A program made the translations under genes and the position numbers. 64,000 bases of DNA from Crambe crambe (taxonomy: Eukaryota > Porifera > Demospongiae > Poecilosclerida > Crambeidae). Below the pieces are notes generated by a model that did no database searches, was not told the origin of the DNA, and saw only the letters and a list, made by a program, of their open reading frames with translations. How positions within the stretch are numbered: position 1 is the first letter of the stretch; each line of letters opens with the position of its first letter. The DNA lies in the NCBI GenBank assembly GCA_963924555.1, contig OZ004597.1:2064404-2128403 (forward strand), read 5' to 3'. Below are positions 14,283 to 62,958 of this stretch, one piece after another.

Positions 14283-17358
<3,076 letters not shown>

Positions 17359-24200: not shown

Positions 24201-24647
24201 TTATGAACATACACAAATAAAGCAATCAAACTGTTGTAGCTCTATGGTGGCAAGGCATTGTTGTTTATTAAAAGTACCACCTTGTACAGTTCTAAAGGTG
24301 TACATCGGTGTCAAATCACATTGCCAGTTGGGAACTCTCACTGCTTGAAAAAAACTCGGTGCCCTTCCTCCAGACGTCAAAAATGGGACCGTCACTTCAG
24401 CGGCCGTGGTAGTAGCAACATGACTGCCCTGCTGCTTGAGTATGCACGAAAGTTCGTAGACTTGACTACAAAGTTGTGCTGAGGGAGGGAAGTGGAATTT
24501 GCTTGACATCTTACACACCTGGATAGTAATGGTATGAATCGGGGTTGAAGCGGGCAGCTTCACATTGATTTTCCGATCTTTCCATTCAAAATGGCTACCA
24601 CTGAAGACTCCTATCAGTGGATCATGAACAAGATCTATCACATCTGT

Positions 24648-24679
<32 letters not shown>

Positions 24680-27143
24680 AAAAGAAAAGAAAACAAACTG
24701 GTGTAAAGTGATAATCATGTAAGTGTAGGATTTTACTCTTACCTAGCATTATAGCACTCCCTTCTTGGTTGGAAAGGTGATTTGATGCTGCTCTGGTTAG
24801 CATTTTTCCGTTCAGAAAGAGTCTTAGTCTGTTTTGAGACACATTGAGTGAGGATCCTATATGACGATACAGTTCTCCCACTGTAATCGAACTGTTCACG
24901 GAAATTACTTGAGTCGAAGCACTTGGATGGTACTTGGATATAACTATGCCAAATGATGAAAATGGCATCTTTGCAGAAATCCTGCCATCATCATCTTCTT
25001 CTTCTTGGAGTACCATCACCAGACTGCTCTCCCTCTCAATTCCATAATCTTCCAAGATCTTGTCATTTTCTAACTCTCTTCCTTGAAGAAACAACTTCTG
25101 TCTCTCAGGAGGGATACCTTCGATTTTGCTGATCTTAGCCTTGACTTCGCTGATCTTTTCCCCAAGGGACACACTCAAGGTTACGGTCTTTCCTAGGGGA
25201 TTCTTGATAAAGATACTCTGGAGACTGGGCATGGGTGTAGTTGGCTGGGTTTGGACAGTCAGCTGCAGCGTAGTTTGCATTTGAAGGTTATACGTGTCCA
25301 GTGTTAGCTCATCCTTCAGTTCAACTCCATTCATAAACAATTTCTGCAGTTTTTGAGATATGCCCTGCATTTCATATATTTTATCTTTCAATTCTTGTAC
25401 CTTGGCACTGGGAGATATATCAATTGTTAGAACTTTTCCAATTAAAGTTCTGACGAAAATACTGATAAGTTCCTCTTTAGGAGCAATCAATGAGAGATGT
25501 AGTGTGCTCTCCTGTTCGATATTGTAATCCGTCAACAAACGCTCATCATCGAGACTTTCTCCACGAAAAAGTAATACCTGCTGATCACTGGAAACTCCCT
25601 CCTTCTCAGAGATCTTTGCTTTTAGAGTCTTCACTCTGTCTGTGGGATAGACTTCAATGGCTACGTTTTCCCCCAGCAAATTCCGGACAAAAATTAACGT
25701 TGGAAGGGAAGGATCTTTAATTTCAAGCTCCAATACATGCTGTGATTGAGGACCACAACCACTCAGTGGCATTTCATCAGATAATTCCACACCATGAAGC
25801 AATAGTTTTTGATGATCAACCGGAAATTTTTCTTCAGCAAATATCTTCTCCTTTAACTCATGGACTGTATTACTCGGTGTGAGGTCATCAAACTCCAGGA
25901 TTTTCCCTGTCGTTAATTTGACACGAAGGGGCTGACCAGCGGCCTGAGGAGCATGCACCAATGCCAATTGGAGAGTGCTCTCTGTCAGAACATTGTAGTC
26001 CCCAAGCTTCATCCCATCATGAAGTGACTCTCCACCAAGTAACAGCCTTTGCTGGTCACATGCTACACCCTCCGATTTCTGAATTTTTGCTTTGATACTT
26101 CCAATCGTGTCAGATAAACTTGTTTCAAGTGTAATGGTCCTGCCCATCAAGGTCCTGACAAAGATCTGTATTGAATCACTAACCTTTGGTCTCAAAATGA
26201 GATGCAAAGTACTTTCCATAGCAATGTCATAAGACTTCAATGTCCGGTCATCATCCAATGGGGTTCCTGTGAGTAATAATTGCTGGTCATTAGGATCGTA
26301 TCCCACACTGGAGTGAACTTTATGCTTGATCTCCCTGATAGTGTCACTGGATGAACATTCAATAGTCACCACTTTACCTATTGGGGTTGAGATGTATAGC
26401 ATCTGAGGATTTTCTGAACTCGGTTTCTTTAGTTCTGGTTGCTTTACTTGAACATCGATGATACTTCCATTCTCAATAAAGTAACTATCCATCGTTTTGT
26501 GCTTCTCAAGAAGCGTGCCATGGAAGTAAATTTGTTGATGATCAAGAGGAATCTCAAACTTCTTAGAGATCTGTTTGCACAGGTTATTAACAGGGTCCTT
26601 AAGCAGTATCCTCATGGGAACTGATTGACCACCACCAGTCGGAAGCCTGAGAAACACCTTCCTCTGAGACGAGGCACACACTACATGAAGTGCACTTCCT
26701 CGCTGAATGCCATAGTGATCTAAAGGTTTCTCCCAGTCCATGACTTTCCCTCCATAAATCAGCTGCTGCTGTTCCAAAGGAATGCCTTCTTTCTTGTGGA
26801 TTTGAGAACAAATCTCCTCCACAGTGTCGCTGAGGGTAGCTTGGATGTTGAAAGTTCTTCCACCGAGGGTCTTGATGGGTATATCATGCTTGACAGCCTT
26901 GGGCTGGGTCAGAGGAAGCAACAGTATGGAAGCCCAATTCTGGATGTCATAAGAGACCAGAGTTGCCTCGTCTTCCAGCTCCTTGCCTTTGAAAAGAAGC
27001 TGCTGAAACTGAGGTGGGACGTGGCCTTGTTCGTAGATCTTATTCTTGATAGTCTTTATGGTATCATAAGGATCCGCAGAGAGGGTCACGGTTTCCCCCT
27101 TCACTGTTTGGACGAACAGAGTGAGAGACATACCCTCGGACAT
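24201..27143 (-). CDS. Tandem ubiquitin-like domain protein (nine clear, one degenerate repeat)
   Basis: Two exons, 24743-27143 and 24201-24643. The first exon is one long frame of nine consecutive ubiquitin-like domains of about 75-80 residues, each with the pattern I-F-V-R-T-L-x-G-x-x-x-T-[IL], an Ile-Lys-x-Lys-Ile helix, QQ-[LR]-L-L-x-G and D-Y-N-[IL]-x-x-E-S-T-L-x-L. A tenth, degenerate copy (SITVGELYRHIGSSLNVSQ) and a C-terminal unique region follow. No repeat ends in the Gly-Gly needed for processing or conjugation, so this is a non-cleavable array, not a polyubiquitin precursor. Repeats differ strongly from each other, so the array is old. Function is unknown; a multivalent ubiquitin-mimicking scaffold is an inference. 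The 99-bp intron holds a GAAA repeat and is itself open in frame. Confidence 0.85.
24644..24742 (-). other. 99-bp in-frame intron of the tandem UBL gene
   Basis: The donor GTAAGAG at 24742 and the acceptor TTCTTACAG before 24643 are good matches to consensus. The intron carries a (GAAA)n run (plus strand, about 24650-24692), which is a pyrimidine tract on the transcript. Its length is divisible by three and it lacks stops, so retention would insert 33 residues including a phenylalanine/leucine-rich stretch. Confidence 0.7.
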
Positions 27144-27170
27144 ACCTAGCTAGCTGGAATTAGCTACTAC

Positions 27171-40000: not shown

Positions 40001-40611
40001 GGTAAGATCTTTGCCACCATCTCCTCAGCAATAAGGTTGCCATAGTGATGATGCTTGTAATTATGAGATGAACGAAATTGTGGACCCAGGAGACAAGTCT
40101 ATAAATCCTGGGGTGCAAAATATACACATGAATATCAGAGGATCAGTTCACTGAAAACTTGAAAGTGAAACAGCTAGGATTGAATGCTTCATAGATGCAA
40201 CCATCCTGGATTGTCCAGGGATTTATATGTCCAGGGGTCGTCTATTTGTCCAAGGATTTGTAGTGGTACGGCCATGGTGGATCTGAGTAATGCCATCCAG
40301 TAAAGGCAGTGTCATGCACTAACTTATGTCATTATTATTATTCAAATTGTACACACACACACACACAAGATGGTACGGCATGGCTGTACCATCCACAGAT
40401 TGTGGTTATATAGCTAAAATAACTGGTATTTAATCTACAGCAGCCATATTCATTTTACATAGAACTGGATTTTTTACTTCCAGGTATGATATTTTGTGGA
40501 ACCAATGAAACCCACCTCTTCTGCAGGTTTTTTATCCTTCTTCATCTGTCGCACTACATCACCCTGCACTCTTATTTCCTCTTGCATCAAAGTTTTTGCA
40601 CTGGCAGCCAT
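37032..40611 (-). CDS. HARS1: Histidyl-tRNA synthetase, cytoplasmic type
   Basis: This class II synthetase charges tRNA-His. The first exon (about 40510-40611) encodes [20 protein letters not shown], a WHEP-like helical appendix. The core starts at [17 protein letters not shown] (motif 1 region), followed by [16 protein letters not shown] and [29 protein letters not shown] (motif 2). The HisA signature [14 protein letters not shown] and motif 3 ([16 protein letters not shown]) are intact. The anticodon-binding domain ends [14 protein letters not shown] at the TGA (37032-37034). All residues expected for activity in these motifs are visible. It converges on pirin (129 bp between stops) and diverges from the 7TM-MARCH gene. 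One intron carries a palindromic insertion at 37344-37401. Confidence 0.94.
37334..37411. mobile_element. 58-bp perfect palindromic element with 10-bp target duplication
   Basis: AGCCATCCTT occurs at 37334-37343 and again at 37402-37411. Between them, 25-bp perfect inverted arms (37344-37368 and 37376-37400, starting AGCCTCGTACCCAGGCC) flank a 7-bp loop. This looks like a miniature inverted-repeat transposon inserted into a HARS1 intron. The 9-10 bp target duplication recalls Mutator-like elements. Confidence 0.8.
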
Positions 40612-40809
40612 CTTGGTCTTGGTTTCAGCACTATTAAACCGACCCGCGCATAACAAAATCATGACCAATAAGCGCCTCAATTTAGCGTATTACTCTTTGC
40701 GGCTGACATGCGCGGTAAATTTCCTCTGGCCGTAAATCTGAAGCCGCAGCTTCACCTTCGACGACTCTTTTTGAGTTGGAACCGGGTGTGCTTCATATAA
40801 AGTGCCGCC
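40612..40809. promoter_or_regulatory. Bidirectional promoter of HARS1 and the 7TM-MARCH gene
   Basis: 198 bp between divergent start codons, with several CpG-containing stretches (about 40639-40655, 40696-40760). No TATA box stands out. Confidence 0.4.
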
Positions 40810-43800
40810 ATGGGTATTTTCAGTCTAGAAGTCCTTCACAGGCTCAGGAATACGGTGTCTACGAACGCTGATGCTGTCAAGACTCTGTACTCTTGTCTGG
40901 CCTCGACTTTGGGTTTCGACACCATGCTATTAGACGTCTCTGGCAACTACAGTCTTTGTCAAAAGTCCTGTAACGGCACCGATAATGGGACGAAGTGCAT
41001 TAATAGCAGTTGTTTCTATCCAGTGAGTATGGGAGTATGATATCGGTACTGTCAACCAGCTAGCTACTAGACTGGTGCTATATAATGTGATGGCAAAGAT
41101 GTATTATACAAGTTTATGAGTAGTAAAGAGTAGTGTGTGTTCAGTGCTCTATGCTAGTAGTGTAATGGTGCTAAATAATGACATTAGTTGATGCTAACAA
41201 TCAGTTTCTCACACCTTTGGTGATTGCATAAGCTTTAGAGTATGAATATGCTGACACTCTGAACTCTTTACTACAGATTTCCTATAATTGGTTCATACAT
41301 TGTCTGATAGCTTGACTCTTATATAATGAATAAGACTCTATGAATAATAACAATCAATATTCATATCATACCAGGGGCTAGCGTCAATTGTAATGAATGC
41401 CATGTCGCCTAGCGTCTGGTTCCCTTGTATTGTTTACTGTGATAAAACTCCCTATAGTGATTCAATATACCCCCACGGCCACCCTCCTACCAGTAAGGCT
41501 GCAGAGTTATGACTTGATCTGTACTCTTGTAAACATGTACCCCACTCAGTTGTATTTTTTTTTTAATTTTATACTTTTATCTTTTCTTAGTGCCTGACGT
41601 TGTACACTGACTTTGGGGCAGTATTTGCAACCTTCTCTTACCTTCTCCTGCTCATCTCCACTATTCAACTCGTAAGTACTACCTATGTTATGCTCCAGAG
41701 TCAGACACCACAACCAATCAAAGCATTGGAATCTTCATTATAACTGTTTGCACTACAATGGGTTTGTGTTGACATGGACAAGTAGTGTGTCTATAGCACC
41801 GGGAATGAGAATGTCAGTTTCCTACTGTGTAAAGATGTAGCTAATGCCCGAGTCAGAAATGTGAGAAACGAAGAAATGGAACTTGACAGATTTTTGCACT
41901 TTATCAGAATGAGAGATGGAACTTGACAGGTTCTTGTCAAACTGATTTGGTACAGCAAGTTTCCTCAAGCACTCTGTGCTCAAAGAAATACCCAGGTCTA
42001 AGTACACTGTAACTTAGTAGAACAAAAGGTTTGTAGTTATAAGACCTCTGGCTTTGCAAGGCAAAGGTGAGGAAACTTGCTGTAAACTTGGTTTTGAGTT
42101 GTGGTTAGCAGGGAAATTTATAGTCTGGATATAACTTCCTTTCAGACAGTTTTGATACTAATGAGCAGTTAACATGCTGTGCAAAAGGGAAAGTAGAGAA
42201 GTTAGTGCCCTGAACCTCTCTCCACATGATTTTTGAATCTTAAATTCTATCTTGCAGATTTTAGCTATGATCCATGACTCTTTCCAAGAGGATAAACATC
42301 GGTTATCTCGGTGGCAGAAGGCATTTCGTGTCACCATTCAAAAGTGTCTCTTGGGTGCTGTGATTTTGGCTACAGGATCCAGGGCTATTTATTACACAGT
42401 TCAGAGTCTAATTCCCGATAAATGGGGGGACATACTCCTCAATGTTTACTACCCATCGCTCCTTTCTGCATTCTCTCTCCTGATCTGCTTCTGGGCAGAG
42501 GTAAGAACAGAATTAGGATAGAAACTTTGTCTGTAATCGTTGCTGTTAAGAACAGTAATAAGGAAAGAAATCTTGTCTGTAATGACTTGGCTGTGTGTCA
42601 CAGATAGTCATAAATAATAGAATTCCCCCCTGAATTAAGCTCTGTCTACCCTGAATTAGATAGTAGGAATGTGAATAATGTTAGAGCCAGGTGTACCATA
42701 GTCAACGAAGGTCAAAATGAAAGCTCTATCATTTTCATTCATACCCATACAGTTTTTTTATACACCATCAAACTTGGAAAGTCGAGACTTCCTCATCAAG
42801 CACCGATACTCGATCGTCTATCTCATTTTCAACATTATGGTTTACCTCCTACTCATTGCCGATATCATAGCCACACCCCTCATCAGTGACCAAGAACAGA
42901 TTCAAATGAGTGGCATAATTGGCACCATTTTTGCTTTCTTTTTATTCATGACACTGATAGGATTTCTCCACTTTGCCATTCGGCTTTTCTTTAGGGTAAG
43001 TGTATGAGACCTTTAATAATGTGGGGAAGGGAGACCATGATGTTTTGTTGTTGTTTTCAAATTTGTCGTAACATTAAAGAATTCCACGTGTGTTATTCTT
43101 GCTGTTTCCATTTCAGCCTGACTGGCAACCTCTCTTTATCCAACTGGCCGTCTTACGGATCAACCTGCGCCAACAGTTTGCCTCTGTGCTGGGTGTGGTT
43201 TCTAATGCTGTTATGCAGGGTCTGATCATATCTCTGCTAATCTTCAATATGGTGGTCCGTTACATCCCTGTGGACAGTTACAACCTGTACATCTGTGCAG
43301 TGGTGATTCGAGTGACAGAACTCATCATGCCATTCTGGTTCTGCTGCTCACTTTGGAACTTCAAGCAGTGAGTAAATGGGTATCATTAGTAAGAACAGCT
43401 CAAATTCTTGATGATGCCCATCTGTAATGTACACCTGTGTTAAGAATGTGGTATCATGGTCATATTTCTGTGTGTTCTTGACAGACCAAAGAGGTTATGG
43501 ATCCTTAACCCTGGTCTAATTCTCAAGCCAAATGATCTGGTAAGCCAAACAAAATAATGTGTTGCACCACATTGGTATGTATTTCCTGGGCATTTTGCTG
43601 CTACTGGTTAGTGAAGTCTTACAAGGCATGTCAAAATTTTCTGTGCAGGTGGACGATGTTGAACGCAAGAGTTTGATTGGAACTCAGTCAGATGGCTGTA
43701 CACAATATGGGACAGCTTCACTCAGTAAGTGTCTCCTTATTTTTTCCCCCTCGTGCTTTGAACTTTTTTTTATTTTTTACTTTTTAGACTCTGTAGGTAG

Positions 43801-45787
43801 TGATGATGATGCTATTGCTCGGAGTAGTGTGGCAGGGGAGGATGGATGTTGTTGGGTTTGTCTCGGCAATGATAACCCTAGTGATCTCTTCTATCCCTGC
43901 AACTGCAGACTGCACAGGAAATGCATCAAGCAGTGGGTGGCTAAGGTAAGAGGGCAAAGGACAAGTGAGTAGGATGGGGATAAATTGTTAGAGTGAGGAA
44001 AGGGAAGATCATGAATCAGAATGTTTTTGGTGACTACAGTACAGGGCTATAATTGGGGTGAGCCCCACACTAGGAAGTAGGCTAATAAAAATAATAATAA
44101 TGACATATAAGTTAGTACATAGCATTGCTATGGCATTGCCTAGATTATGCCAGATTGAATCTAAATTACCAACTTTAGGGCATTCCCGGACCCCCAGATG
44201 GTAGCTATGTCTGTGCCACTATAAATAAGTGCTCCAGCTATGTAGAGTACCCAATATAATATTATAATGAAGCAGGCAGACATTATGGCAAAAGTTATTA
44301 TTGTTCCCCTACAATTAGCGAGTGTACAGTACATGAGTATTGTGGAATGTGTGTACGATACCTATGGATCATTGGATTGAGAGTTGTGTATGGTCATTCC
44401 ATTCCATTGTTGCATGTGATTGTTTTTGTGTAGAGAGCATCCAATGCGAACATCACTGAGAAGGAGTATATGAGATGTCAGGTGTGCAGAAAAAAGGTAT
44501 GATTGGAATCTCCCTTTGGCTTTTATAGAATAATGATTAATAAGCCTGTGGGATTGTAATCTGATACCAAAGCATAAAACCATAATTGTGATGTATTTCG
44601 TCACCAAAGCCTGGCCTGTTATTAACTCAAAGCAGTAGTTAATGTAGCGGTTGGCTTGAGGCTGCCTGGAATTCAGGGGCTTTATTGTTATTAATCCTTT
44701 TCCCTTGCAGTATCACACAAAGAGCGAAAGTTTTCTCTGTTTCTTTCGAGGCATGGAAAGAAGGTGAGACCTGCTCCCTCTCTGTCTGTGTACAGGGACT
44801 AGCTGGAGCTGTTTATCCTTGCCTACCATATAAGTATACATGTGGGTTTTAGAAGCCTAGGTGTTGTAATTAGCAGAGCCGCAATGGTAATAATCAGTTT
44901 TGGAATGGCTGCATCTCTAATGATGCAAAAAAAATTACCAACACATTAGCCAATGCCATGGAGTAGTTTGCTTGTGAACCATCCCTGGCCATAGACTGGA
45001 TGTGTTGCATCACCGGCGCTAGGGTGATGCAATACAACCTGGGGTCAATCCTTTCATATCAGTACGCTAGCGGTTTTGTGGTCAGTCTTGTGACTTCCAT
45101 CAAATGTATGTAGGCATTGGCTGCTGTTGTTGGGAGCTGGTGTGTTGGTTCTGACAACTATAATAGGACTGGTTCTCTTTGCTCATTACTCACAACTGGA
45201 GAGAAATAGGAAAATACTCGCGATATGCTGCGTGGCCATATTTGCAGCAGCAATCATAAAGTAAGTTATGTAACACTTGACACGTGTAATAATAATGTTT
45301 ATATTAGTCTTCTTGTGTATATTTTGCATATTGGGAGCTAGGACTGGGTAATTCCCTGTAATGATGACTCCTCGTACAGTAATTATACTGTTACTGTCTG
45401 CTGATTCCATGTATGTTATGATCTGCTCTTGTTTACAGGTGCCTAGGGTTCAAAATGACTCTGGTTCTACGCAAGAGTAAATCCCGAAGACAAGAACTAC
45501 AGGGCCTCACTGTAGAAGAGTGGAAGAAAAAAAAAGAGAAGAAACAACAACTTGAGCAAGCATACCAGATTCCTTCTCCTCCTCAACCTGTGGTTGCAAG
45601 CAGTGGGGCAAGGAGACCTGTCATAGCTGGTAGTGGTAGCATGGTACGCTATGATGCTCCTGTTCACCCAATTAGTGTTGGCACTGAAGGAACTGTAAAA
45701 ATAGTCACTGCTACATCTAATCTTGGCACTAAGAACTCCTCTAAGTCTTTTCACAGTAGTATTTCAGTAGACAGCAATCCATCATGA
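40810..45787 (+). CDS. Seven-span membrane protein fused to a MARCH-type RING-CH E3 ligase
   Basis: Exons: 40810-41022, 41591-41671, 42258-42500, 42753-42995, 43117-43367, 43485-43539, 43649-43724, 43788-43945, 44434-44496, 44711-44763, 45114-45260 and 45439-45787; all phases join. The N-terminus is short and cysteine-rich with several N-x-S/T sites. Seven hydrophobic segments follow (for example AVFATFSYLLLLISTIQLIL, LLSAFSLLICFWAEF, IVYLIFNIMVYLLLIADI), ending at FWFCCSLW. This block vaguely recalls the TOM1/THH1/GPR137 type, which is a guess. Then comes a C4HC3 RING-CH domain (CWVC, YPCNC, LHRKC, MRCQVC) and two more transmembrane helices, which is the usual MARCH layout. A lysine-rich, Ser-rich cytosolic tail ends the protein. 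It is likely a membrane-embedded ubiquitin ligase; substrates are unknown. Confidence 0.82.
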
Positions 45788-46315
45788 CCTGTATATTATA
45801 TATACCGTTTGCTTCATTATCATACAGTTCAATTTTGTGTTTGTTGGGTTTCCATATTATAAGCTGACGTCACATCTGGTACCTGTTCGCACGCGCGTAC
45901 AATCTGCATTTAAATTTGGCGCGCGCATGCTTAACTGGTGCTGACGATATTTTACCCATTACCACCACATTTATGCACATTCTTACGAGTGTTGTACCCA
46001 AAAGTAAGACTTCAGTGCAACTATTATACAAAGGTATGTACAATTAAAAAATAATGGTGAGGCACAAAATCAATTGGAATCAAAATAAATAATTGTTCTA
46101 GGAATGAACCACATCAATACAAACGGACAAGAGAGTGATCAAGACCAGAATAATATGTAGTAAAAATTTTCCATACTGTCCACAGTCACCTGTGAAACTA
46201 ACAAACACATGCACACACAACGAGAAGGAGCAGAAGTTTGATTTCAAAGGAGCTATTAACTATGTGTAACAGTAGCAGTGCACAGAAGCAGAAATTGGAG
46301 AGAGTTTTGGGTGGA
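45788..46315. other. Spacer between convergent gene ends with a CpG-rich core
   Basis: About 530 bp between the 7TM-MARCH stop and the ARAP stop. I see no gene. Positions 45888-45930 are unusually CpG-rich for a 3'-3' spacer (CACGCGCGTAC, TTTGGCGCGCGCATGC) and include an E2F-like TTTGGCGC. Confidence 0.5.

Positions 46316-62958
<16,643 letters not shown>

Follow-up and report, generated by a model that had tools for sequence, protein, structure and literature searches.

The 64,000-nucleotide stretch of Crambe crambe DNA analysed here (the window; contig OZ004597.1, positions 2,064,404 to 2,128,403) carries on its plus strand, at 40810-45787, a predicted gene whose protein contains, in order, a glycosylatable N-terminus, seven membrane spans, a C4HC3 ring and two further spans. 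We found that the seven spans and the ring very likely lie on a single chain, encoded by one gene and not two. This gene probably encodes a polytopic membrane E3 ubiquitin ligase with a seven-span substrate platform. The gene model, the span pattern, the charge bias and the ring ligands were computed directly; from them we infer zinc binding, E2 binding, ligase activity, the compartment, the substrates and any sensing by the seven-span part.

Exon joining yields 12 exons with compatible phases throughout, and all 11 introns are GT-AG. The predicted coding sequence (1932 nt, from the ATG at 40810 to the TGA ending at 45787) specifies 643 amino acids plus the stop, and no stop interrupts the 643 codons of the spliced frame. 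The start at 40810 is supported because an in-frame TAA precedes it at 40798 and it has the Kozak context GCCGCCATGG. The twelve-exon model and its hydrophobic segments agree with the sequence-only reading, an earlier inspection of this DNA that had proposed a spliced frame with seven spans, a C4HC3 ring and two spans. The parts of the gene are as follows.

40810..41022, plus strand: exon 1, with the start ATG and residues 1-71, the predicted luminal or extracellular N-terminus with sequons 46, 55, 59 and 65; donor GTGAGT
41591..41671, plus strand: exon 2, most of span 1 (GT-AG, phase 0; hydrophobicity)
42258..42500, plus strand: exon 3, span 2 and most of span 3 (GT-AG, phase 0; hydrophobicity)
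42753..42995, plus strand: exon 4, spans 4 and 5 (GT-AG, phase 0; hydrophobicity)
43117..43367, plus strand: exon 5, spans 6 and 7 (GT-AG; hydrophobicity)
43485..43539, plus strand: exon 6, juxtamembrane linker, which with exon 7 keeps the ring in frame (held-out splice sites)
43649..43724, plus strand: exon 7, cytosolic linker without an in-frame methionine
43788..43945, plus strand: exon 8, acidic and serine linker and ring ligands 1-6, CWVC...CNCRLHRKC (held-out acceptor, Pfam RINGv)
44434..44496, plus strand: exon 9, final ring ligand pair (CQVC)
44711..44763, plus strand: exon 10, linker after the ring
45114..45260, plus strand: exon 11, span 8 (482-502) and all but the last residues of span 9 (513-531), which fall in exon 12
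45439..45787, plus strand: exon 12, end of span 9, basic juxtamembrane stretch, cytosolic tail and stop TGA
46043..46089, plus strand: candidate poly(A) signals, ATTAAA at 46043 and AATAAA at 46084

The evidence for a single chain comes from exons 6 to 8. These exons contain no in-frame methionine, the nearest on either side being M331, within span 7, and M453, close to the ring's end, and the ring is in frame only when both exon 6 and exon 7 are included. Splice sites were scored with a matrix trained on eight introns of this gene while introns 5-7 were held out. The held-out donors of introns 5, 6 and 7 ranked within the best 2.9%, 3.0% and 4.3% of GT dinucleotides in the window, and the corresponding acceptors within the best 3.5%, 0.6% and 0.09% of AG dinucleotides. 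The exon 8 acceptor was third-best of the eleven although held out of training, and therefore exon 8 is unlikely to be a first exon. Between 43368 and 43648 the observed/expected CpG ratio is 0, compared with 1.25 at the 5′ end, and no TATAWA box is present. Because there is no in-frame methionine from span 7 to the ring end, and because this gap is free of CpG while the 5′ end reaches a ratio of 1.25, one gene is likelier than two.

The alternative of two adjacent genes on the same strand, one for a seven-span protein that would end after exon 6 and one, small and MARCH-like, that would begin in intron 6, is unlikely. Several features could accommodate it: read-through from exon 6 into intron 6 soon meets a stop (open reading frame ending at 43557), two ATGs in the unspliced ring frame, at 43577 and 43628, might initiate a product of their own, the open reading frame 43544-43972 continues across intron 7, and introns 6 and 7 have exon-like codon scores. 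However, both ATGs sit within a predicted GT-AG intron, so that the second start between 43540 and 43788, which the sequence-only reading had offered as grounds for rejecting the fusion, is absent from the spliced exons and appears only in the unspliced frame. The strong exon 8 acceptor and the CpG-free gap also speak against a separate second gene. The same reading had paired that start with a poly(A) site; plus-strand AATAAA or ATTAAA motifs within 40.7-46.3 kb occur at 43073, 44084, 46043 and 46084, and none lies between 43368 and 43788.

Other measurements at this locus are less favourable to a single gene. All eight training donors outscore the three held-out junction donors, though the training set has the advantage in such a comparison. 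With a codon score trained on the other exons of this gene, exons 6, 7 and 8 come out positive and do best in their own frame. The values of introns 6 and 7, however, rise to 0.066 and 0.156 in one of the frames; exons 9, 11 and 12 come out a little negative, and for exons 10 and 11 a frame other than the predicted one does better. Given these mixed intron and exon values, the codon score was given no weight at the junction. A sigma-70 scan of the junction returned one promoter-like site against 1.0 expected; such a scan is not meaningful for an animal gene and was left unused. Separately, intron 7 (43725-43787) is 63 nt long, a length divisible by three, and has no in-frame stop, so that a retained-intron isoform with 21 additional residues before the ring is possible.

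The topology prediction returned nine segments on a Hessa-type scale (residues 82-100, 124-142, 165-183, 200-218, 233-251, 291-309, 314-332, 482-502 and 513-531). The two spans after the ring, 482-502 and 513-531, rank second and third of the 14 segments listed. Span 7 is marginal: as the weakest accepted segment (314-332, 3.67) it scores fairly close to the best rejected segment (23-41, 4.43), so that a count of seven is to some degree a matter of where the threshold is set. Lysine and arginine occupy 15 of 93 inside-loop positions in the seven-span part compared to 6 of 121 outside-loop positions (permutation p 0.006), a positive-inside bias that places the N-terminus out, the ring in and the tail in. 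The modelled topology thus supports a cytosolic ring and an N-terminus in the lumen or outside the cell, and the check that the sequence-only reading had suggested came out in its favour. The potential N-glycosylation sites and cysteines that it had pointed out at the N-terminus are also present, with four sequons (46, 55, 59 and 65), all within residues 1-67 and on the side predicted to face out; two further sequons, 446 and 627, fall on the predicted inner, cytosolic side.

The ring spans residues 409-458 and has the ligand order C4HC3 (409-CWVC...CNC-RL-H-RK-C...CQVC-458), with cysteine as ligand 4 and histidine as ligand 5. The Pfam RINGv model matches over its full length (1-47 of 47) at 26.8 bits against a cut-off of 21.6 (expectation value, E, of 5.7e-6), while zf-C3HC4 stays below its cut-off (16.4 bits vs 21). 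Ligands 4 and 5 are spaced as C-x-C-x2-H, as in RING-H2 fingers, and not as the C-x-C-x7-H that we take to be the RING-CH consensus. A search of the sponge's own genome with RINGv gave three matches, this gene and two others; both others, L001 (MARCH5-like by eye) and L002 (MARCH6-like by eye; model positions 1-30 only), have the x7 spacing, as does Doa10. The top sequence match in the PDB is the Doa10 ring (E 2.3e-4 and 4.3e-3), whose alignment has a five-residue gap between ligands 4 and 5; later matches are mostly RING-type fingers from E 0.099 upwards, and the alignments with RNF24, ZNRF3 and RNF38 are gapless between these ligands. Ligands 6 and 7 are separated by 21 residues here and by 20 in Doa10 (a count made by eye), and both fingers share a tryptophan four residues past ligand 6. 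On its sequence, the finger is therefore a RING-variant of mixed spacing rather than a textbook MARCH finger. The C4HC3 RING-CH domain of the sequence-only reading stands as to ligand order and the RINGv match above cut-off, but not as to the spacing of the RING-CH fingers compared, and its description of a complete MARCH ligase was too strong.

The same spacing bears on whether the ring is active at all. An inactive ring, a pseudo-E3, or a decaying gene that is still coding-competent would leave the seven-span part as the functional portion, and the absence of the five residues found in Doa10 and in both other RINGv fingers of this genome fits such a loss. Against this, all eight ligands are kept, the tryptophan stands where Doa10 has it, the x2 spacing is the same as in the RING-H2 fingers aligned, and 643 codons run without an internal stop, which together make inactivity highly unlikely.

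We searched for relatives of the protein in viral contigs, prokaryote genomes and, as the only eukaryote collection, the sponge's own assembly (143,139,886 bases, 119 contigs). Viral contigs gave five pattern stretches and prokaryote genomes 34, with no relative among either. In the own-genome search with the whole protein, all 12 matches at E up to 1 fell within the span of this gene; 11 candidates were scored and exons were matched singly, so that a distant paralogue could be missed. For the seven-span part at E up to 10, Pfam lists only YmiC and Toxin_2, both below cut-off, and no seven-transmembrane (7TM) or G-protein-coupled receptor (GPCR) family; NCBIfam gives no family, and the PDB no chain at the same threshold.

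The TOM1/GPR137-like label that the sequence-only reading had attached to the seven spans found no support. PF06454 (TOM1) is not listed for this part at E up to 10, although HMMER filters may drop remote matches, and an own-genome search with PF06454 scored two candidates, both at other loci and below cut-off, without bringing up this gene. A short stretch near span 3 may resemble plant TOM1 proteins. The genome also holds, on C8, two multi-span open reading frames about 4 kb apart (L004 and L005) that are 82% identical and have weak, sub-cutoff similarity to the TOM1 model. These were compared with the seven-span part as possible relatives and rejected (probability 0.4%).

Several known ligases resemble the predicted protein in part. 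In PMC11555709, Tul1 is described as beginning with a signal peptide and an N-terminus that is luminal and glycosylated, followed by seven spans and a cytosolic RING-H2; it occurs in fungi and plants but not in mammals. As described there, the fungal and plant Golgi-endosome E3s Tul1, Dsc1 and FLY1-FLY2 share the plan predicted here as far as the ring, with a luminal, glycosylated N-terminus and a cytosolic ring that follows the last of seven predicted spans. Tul1 differs in its signal peptide, its large luminal domain and its RING-H2 at the C-terminus; the sponge protein has a short N-terminus and a C4HC3 ring followed by two extra spans and a tail. Among the entries listed in a search of the literature (titles and abstract starts, mostly drawn from longer hit lists, with most subscription journals outside its coverage), no 7TM-RING-2TM protein appeared. 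The statement that no standard animal family has this layout is therefore uncontradicted for the whole, but up to the ring the fungal and plant Tul1/Dsc1/FLY1 plan is the same.

MARCH ligases usually have an N-terminal ring followed by two spans, with the exceptions of MARCH5 (four spans), MARCH6 (up to 14) and MARCH7/10 (none), according to PMC4897099. The sponge protein shares with the two-span MARCH (MARCHF) type the C4HC3 ligand order, a RINGv match above cut-off and two predicted spans after the ring; it differs from these mostly N-terminal rings without earlier spans in placing seven spans first and in its C-x-C-x2-H in place of x7. Doa10/MARCH6, with up to 14 spans, offers the best match among solved rings and a similar ligand 6-7 spacing, but the Doa10 ring lies at the N-terminal end of its chain (37-98 of 1319) and is longer by five residues between ligands 4 and 5. 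The sterol-related E3s TRC8, gp78 and RNF145 likewise have a multi-span N-terminal part before a cytosolic ring; theirs is a RING-H2 that is not known to be followed by further spans, in contrast to the C4HC3 ring and two spans predicted here. The roles of endoplasmic reticulum E3s, including these three, are treated in PMC7332293.

These likenesses are consistent with the following mechanism for a membrane ligase. The short glycosylatable N-terminus would face the lumen or the outside, and the seven spans would serve as a platform within the membrane for binding or sensing membrane substrates, lipids or adaptors. The C4HC3 RING-variant finger, carried on a cytosolic loop some 150 residues long, would recruit an E2, while the two-span hairpin would tie the finger to the membrane on its other side, leaving a cytosolic C-terminal tail that is basic at its start. 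Membrane proteins bound by the spans may then be ubiquitinated and thereby degraded or sorted, as with Tul1/Dsc1, TRC8/gp78 and MARCH.

A receptor function for the seven-span part is speculative. In a true enzyme-linked receptor, a ligand on the seven-span part would switch the attached ligase, in the manner proposed for the GPCR-bigrams, in which a 7TM part is followed by a C-terminal enzymatic domain. Seven spans with the N-terminus out by charge, and a glycosylatable, cysteine-containing N-terminus, would suit such a receptor. Fusions of a 7TM part to an enzyme are described in PMC12716839 and PMC6033456, with GPCR-PIPK and GPCR-TK reported in sponges and, in PMC12716839, also in choanoflagellates. 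Their enzymes are lipid or protein kinases or others, unlike the ligase here, and a whole-word search found neither ubiquitin nor RING in the main text of the two papers. The N-terminus has only about 80 residues, no Pfam GPCR family or PDB chain is listed, and the polytopic RING E3s of the secretory pathway account for the same layout without a ligand. We therefore consider the ligand-switched receptor improbable. Slightly less likely still is the stronger form, an unreported family of one-chain receptor-ligases in which an outward seven-span module, a RING-variant E3 and a hairpin would convert a luminal or extracellular signal into ubiquitination; if it existed, it might by analogy parallel the 7TM-kinase fusions of sponges and choanoflagellates. 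Such a ligand-switched protein, if real, would to our knowledge be the first one-chain receptor-ligase.

Further observations count against the membrane ligase with a seven-span platform. Because the ring spacing is atypical, E3 activity is not guaranteed. The PDB entry named cellular modulator of immune recognition, which we take to be MARCH8, matches the ring at only E 0.39. Spans 8 and 9 are joined by a short loop that is predicted outside; three of its 10 residues are lysine or arginine, contrary to the positive-inside rule, and it was not part of the permutation test. The protein has no homologue in the viral contigs, prokaryote genomes or own genome searched, and the substrate and sensing roles, like ligand switching, are putative.

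If the chain is confirmed, two plans of membrane ligase (seven spans then ring; ring then two spans) would be merged in one protein, and a Tul1-like plan would be resembled in a sponge. Its finger, pairing RING-CH ligands with RING-H2 spacing, could then inform the origin of MARCH fingers.

Upstream, the gene faces a minus-strand neighbour that starts near 40611 and reads as histidyl-tRNA synthetase (both by eye). In a Pfam scan of four minus-strand open reading frames there, one matched tRNA-synt_His, with 19.2 bits against a cut-off of 25, and the others matched nothing. The interval between the two genes has a CpG observed/expected ratio of 1.25, compared to 0.36 across the window, as expected of a divergent promoter.

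40615..40809, no strand assigned: presumed shared divergent promoter, between this gene and the minus-strand histidyl-tRNA-synthetase-like gene

On the 3′ side, the minus strand at 46550-48950 holds a RhoGAP open reading frame (41.6 bits, above cut-off) and an RA open reading frame (19.2 bits, below the cut-off of 21), followed by a PH-like stretch recognized by eye. The RhoGAP-RA-PH order is one that we presume to be ARAP-like, the PH assignment being likewise our assumption. Elsewhere in the window, a 982-residue open frame on the minus strand at 24201-27149 contains nine diverged tandem ubiquitin-like stretches (PF00240, 531.9 bits; 786 residues scanned) and would thus encode a poly-ubiquitin-like protein with non-identical units. 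Long TC/GA-type dinucleotide arrays at 15534-16337 and 49780-50372 are open in several frames.

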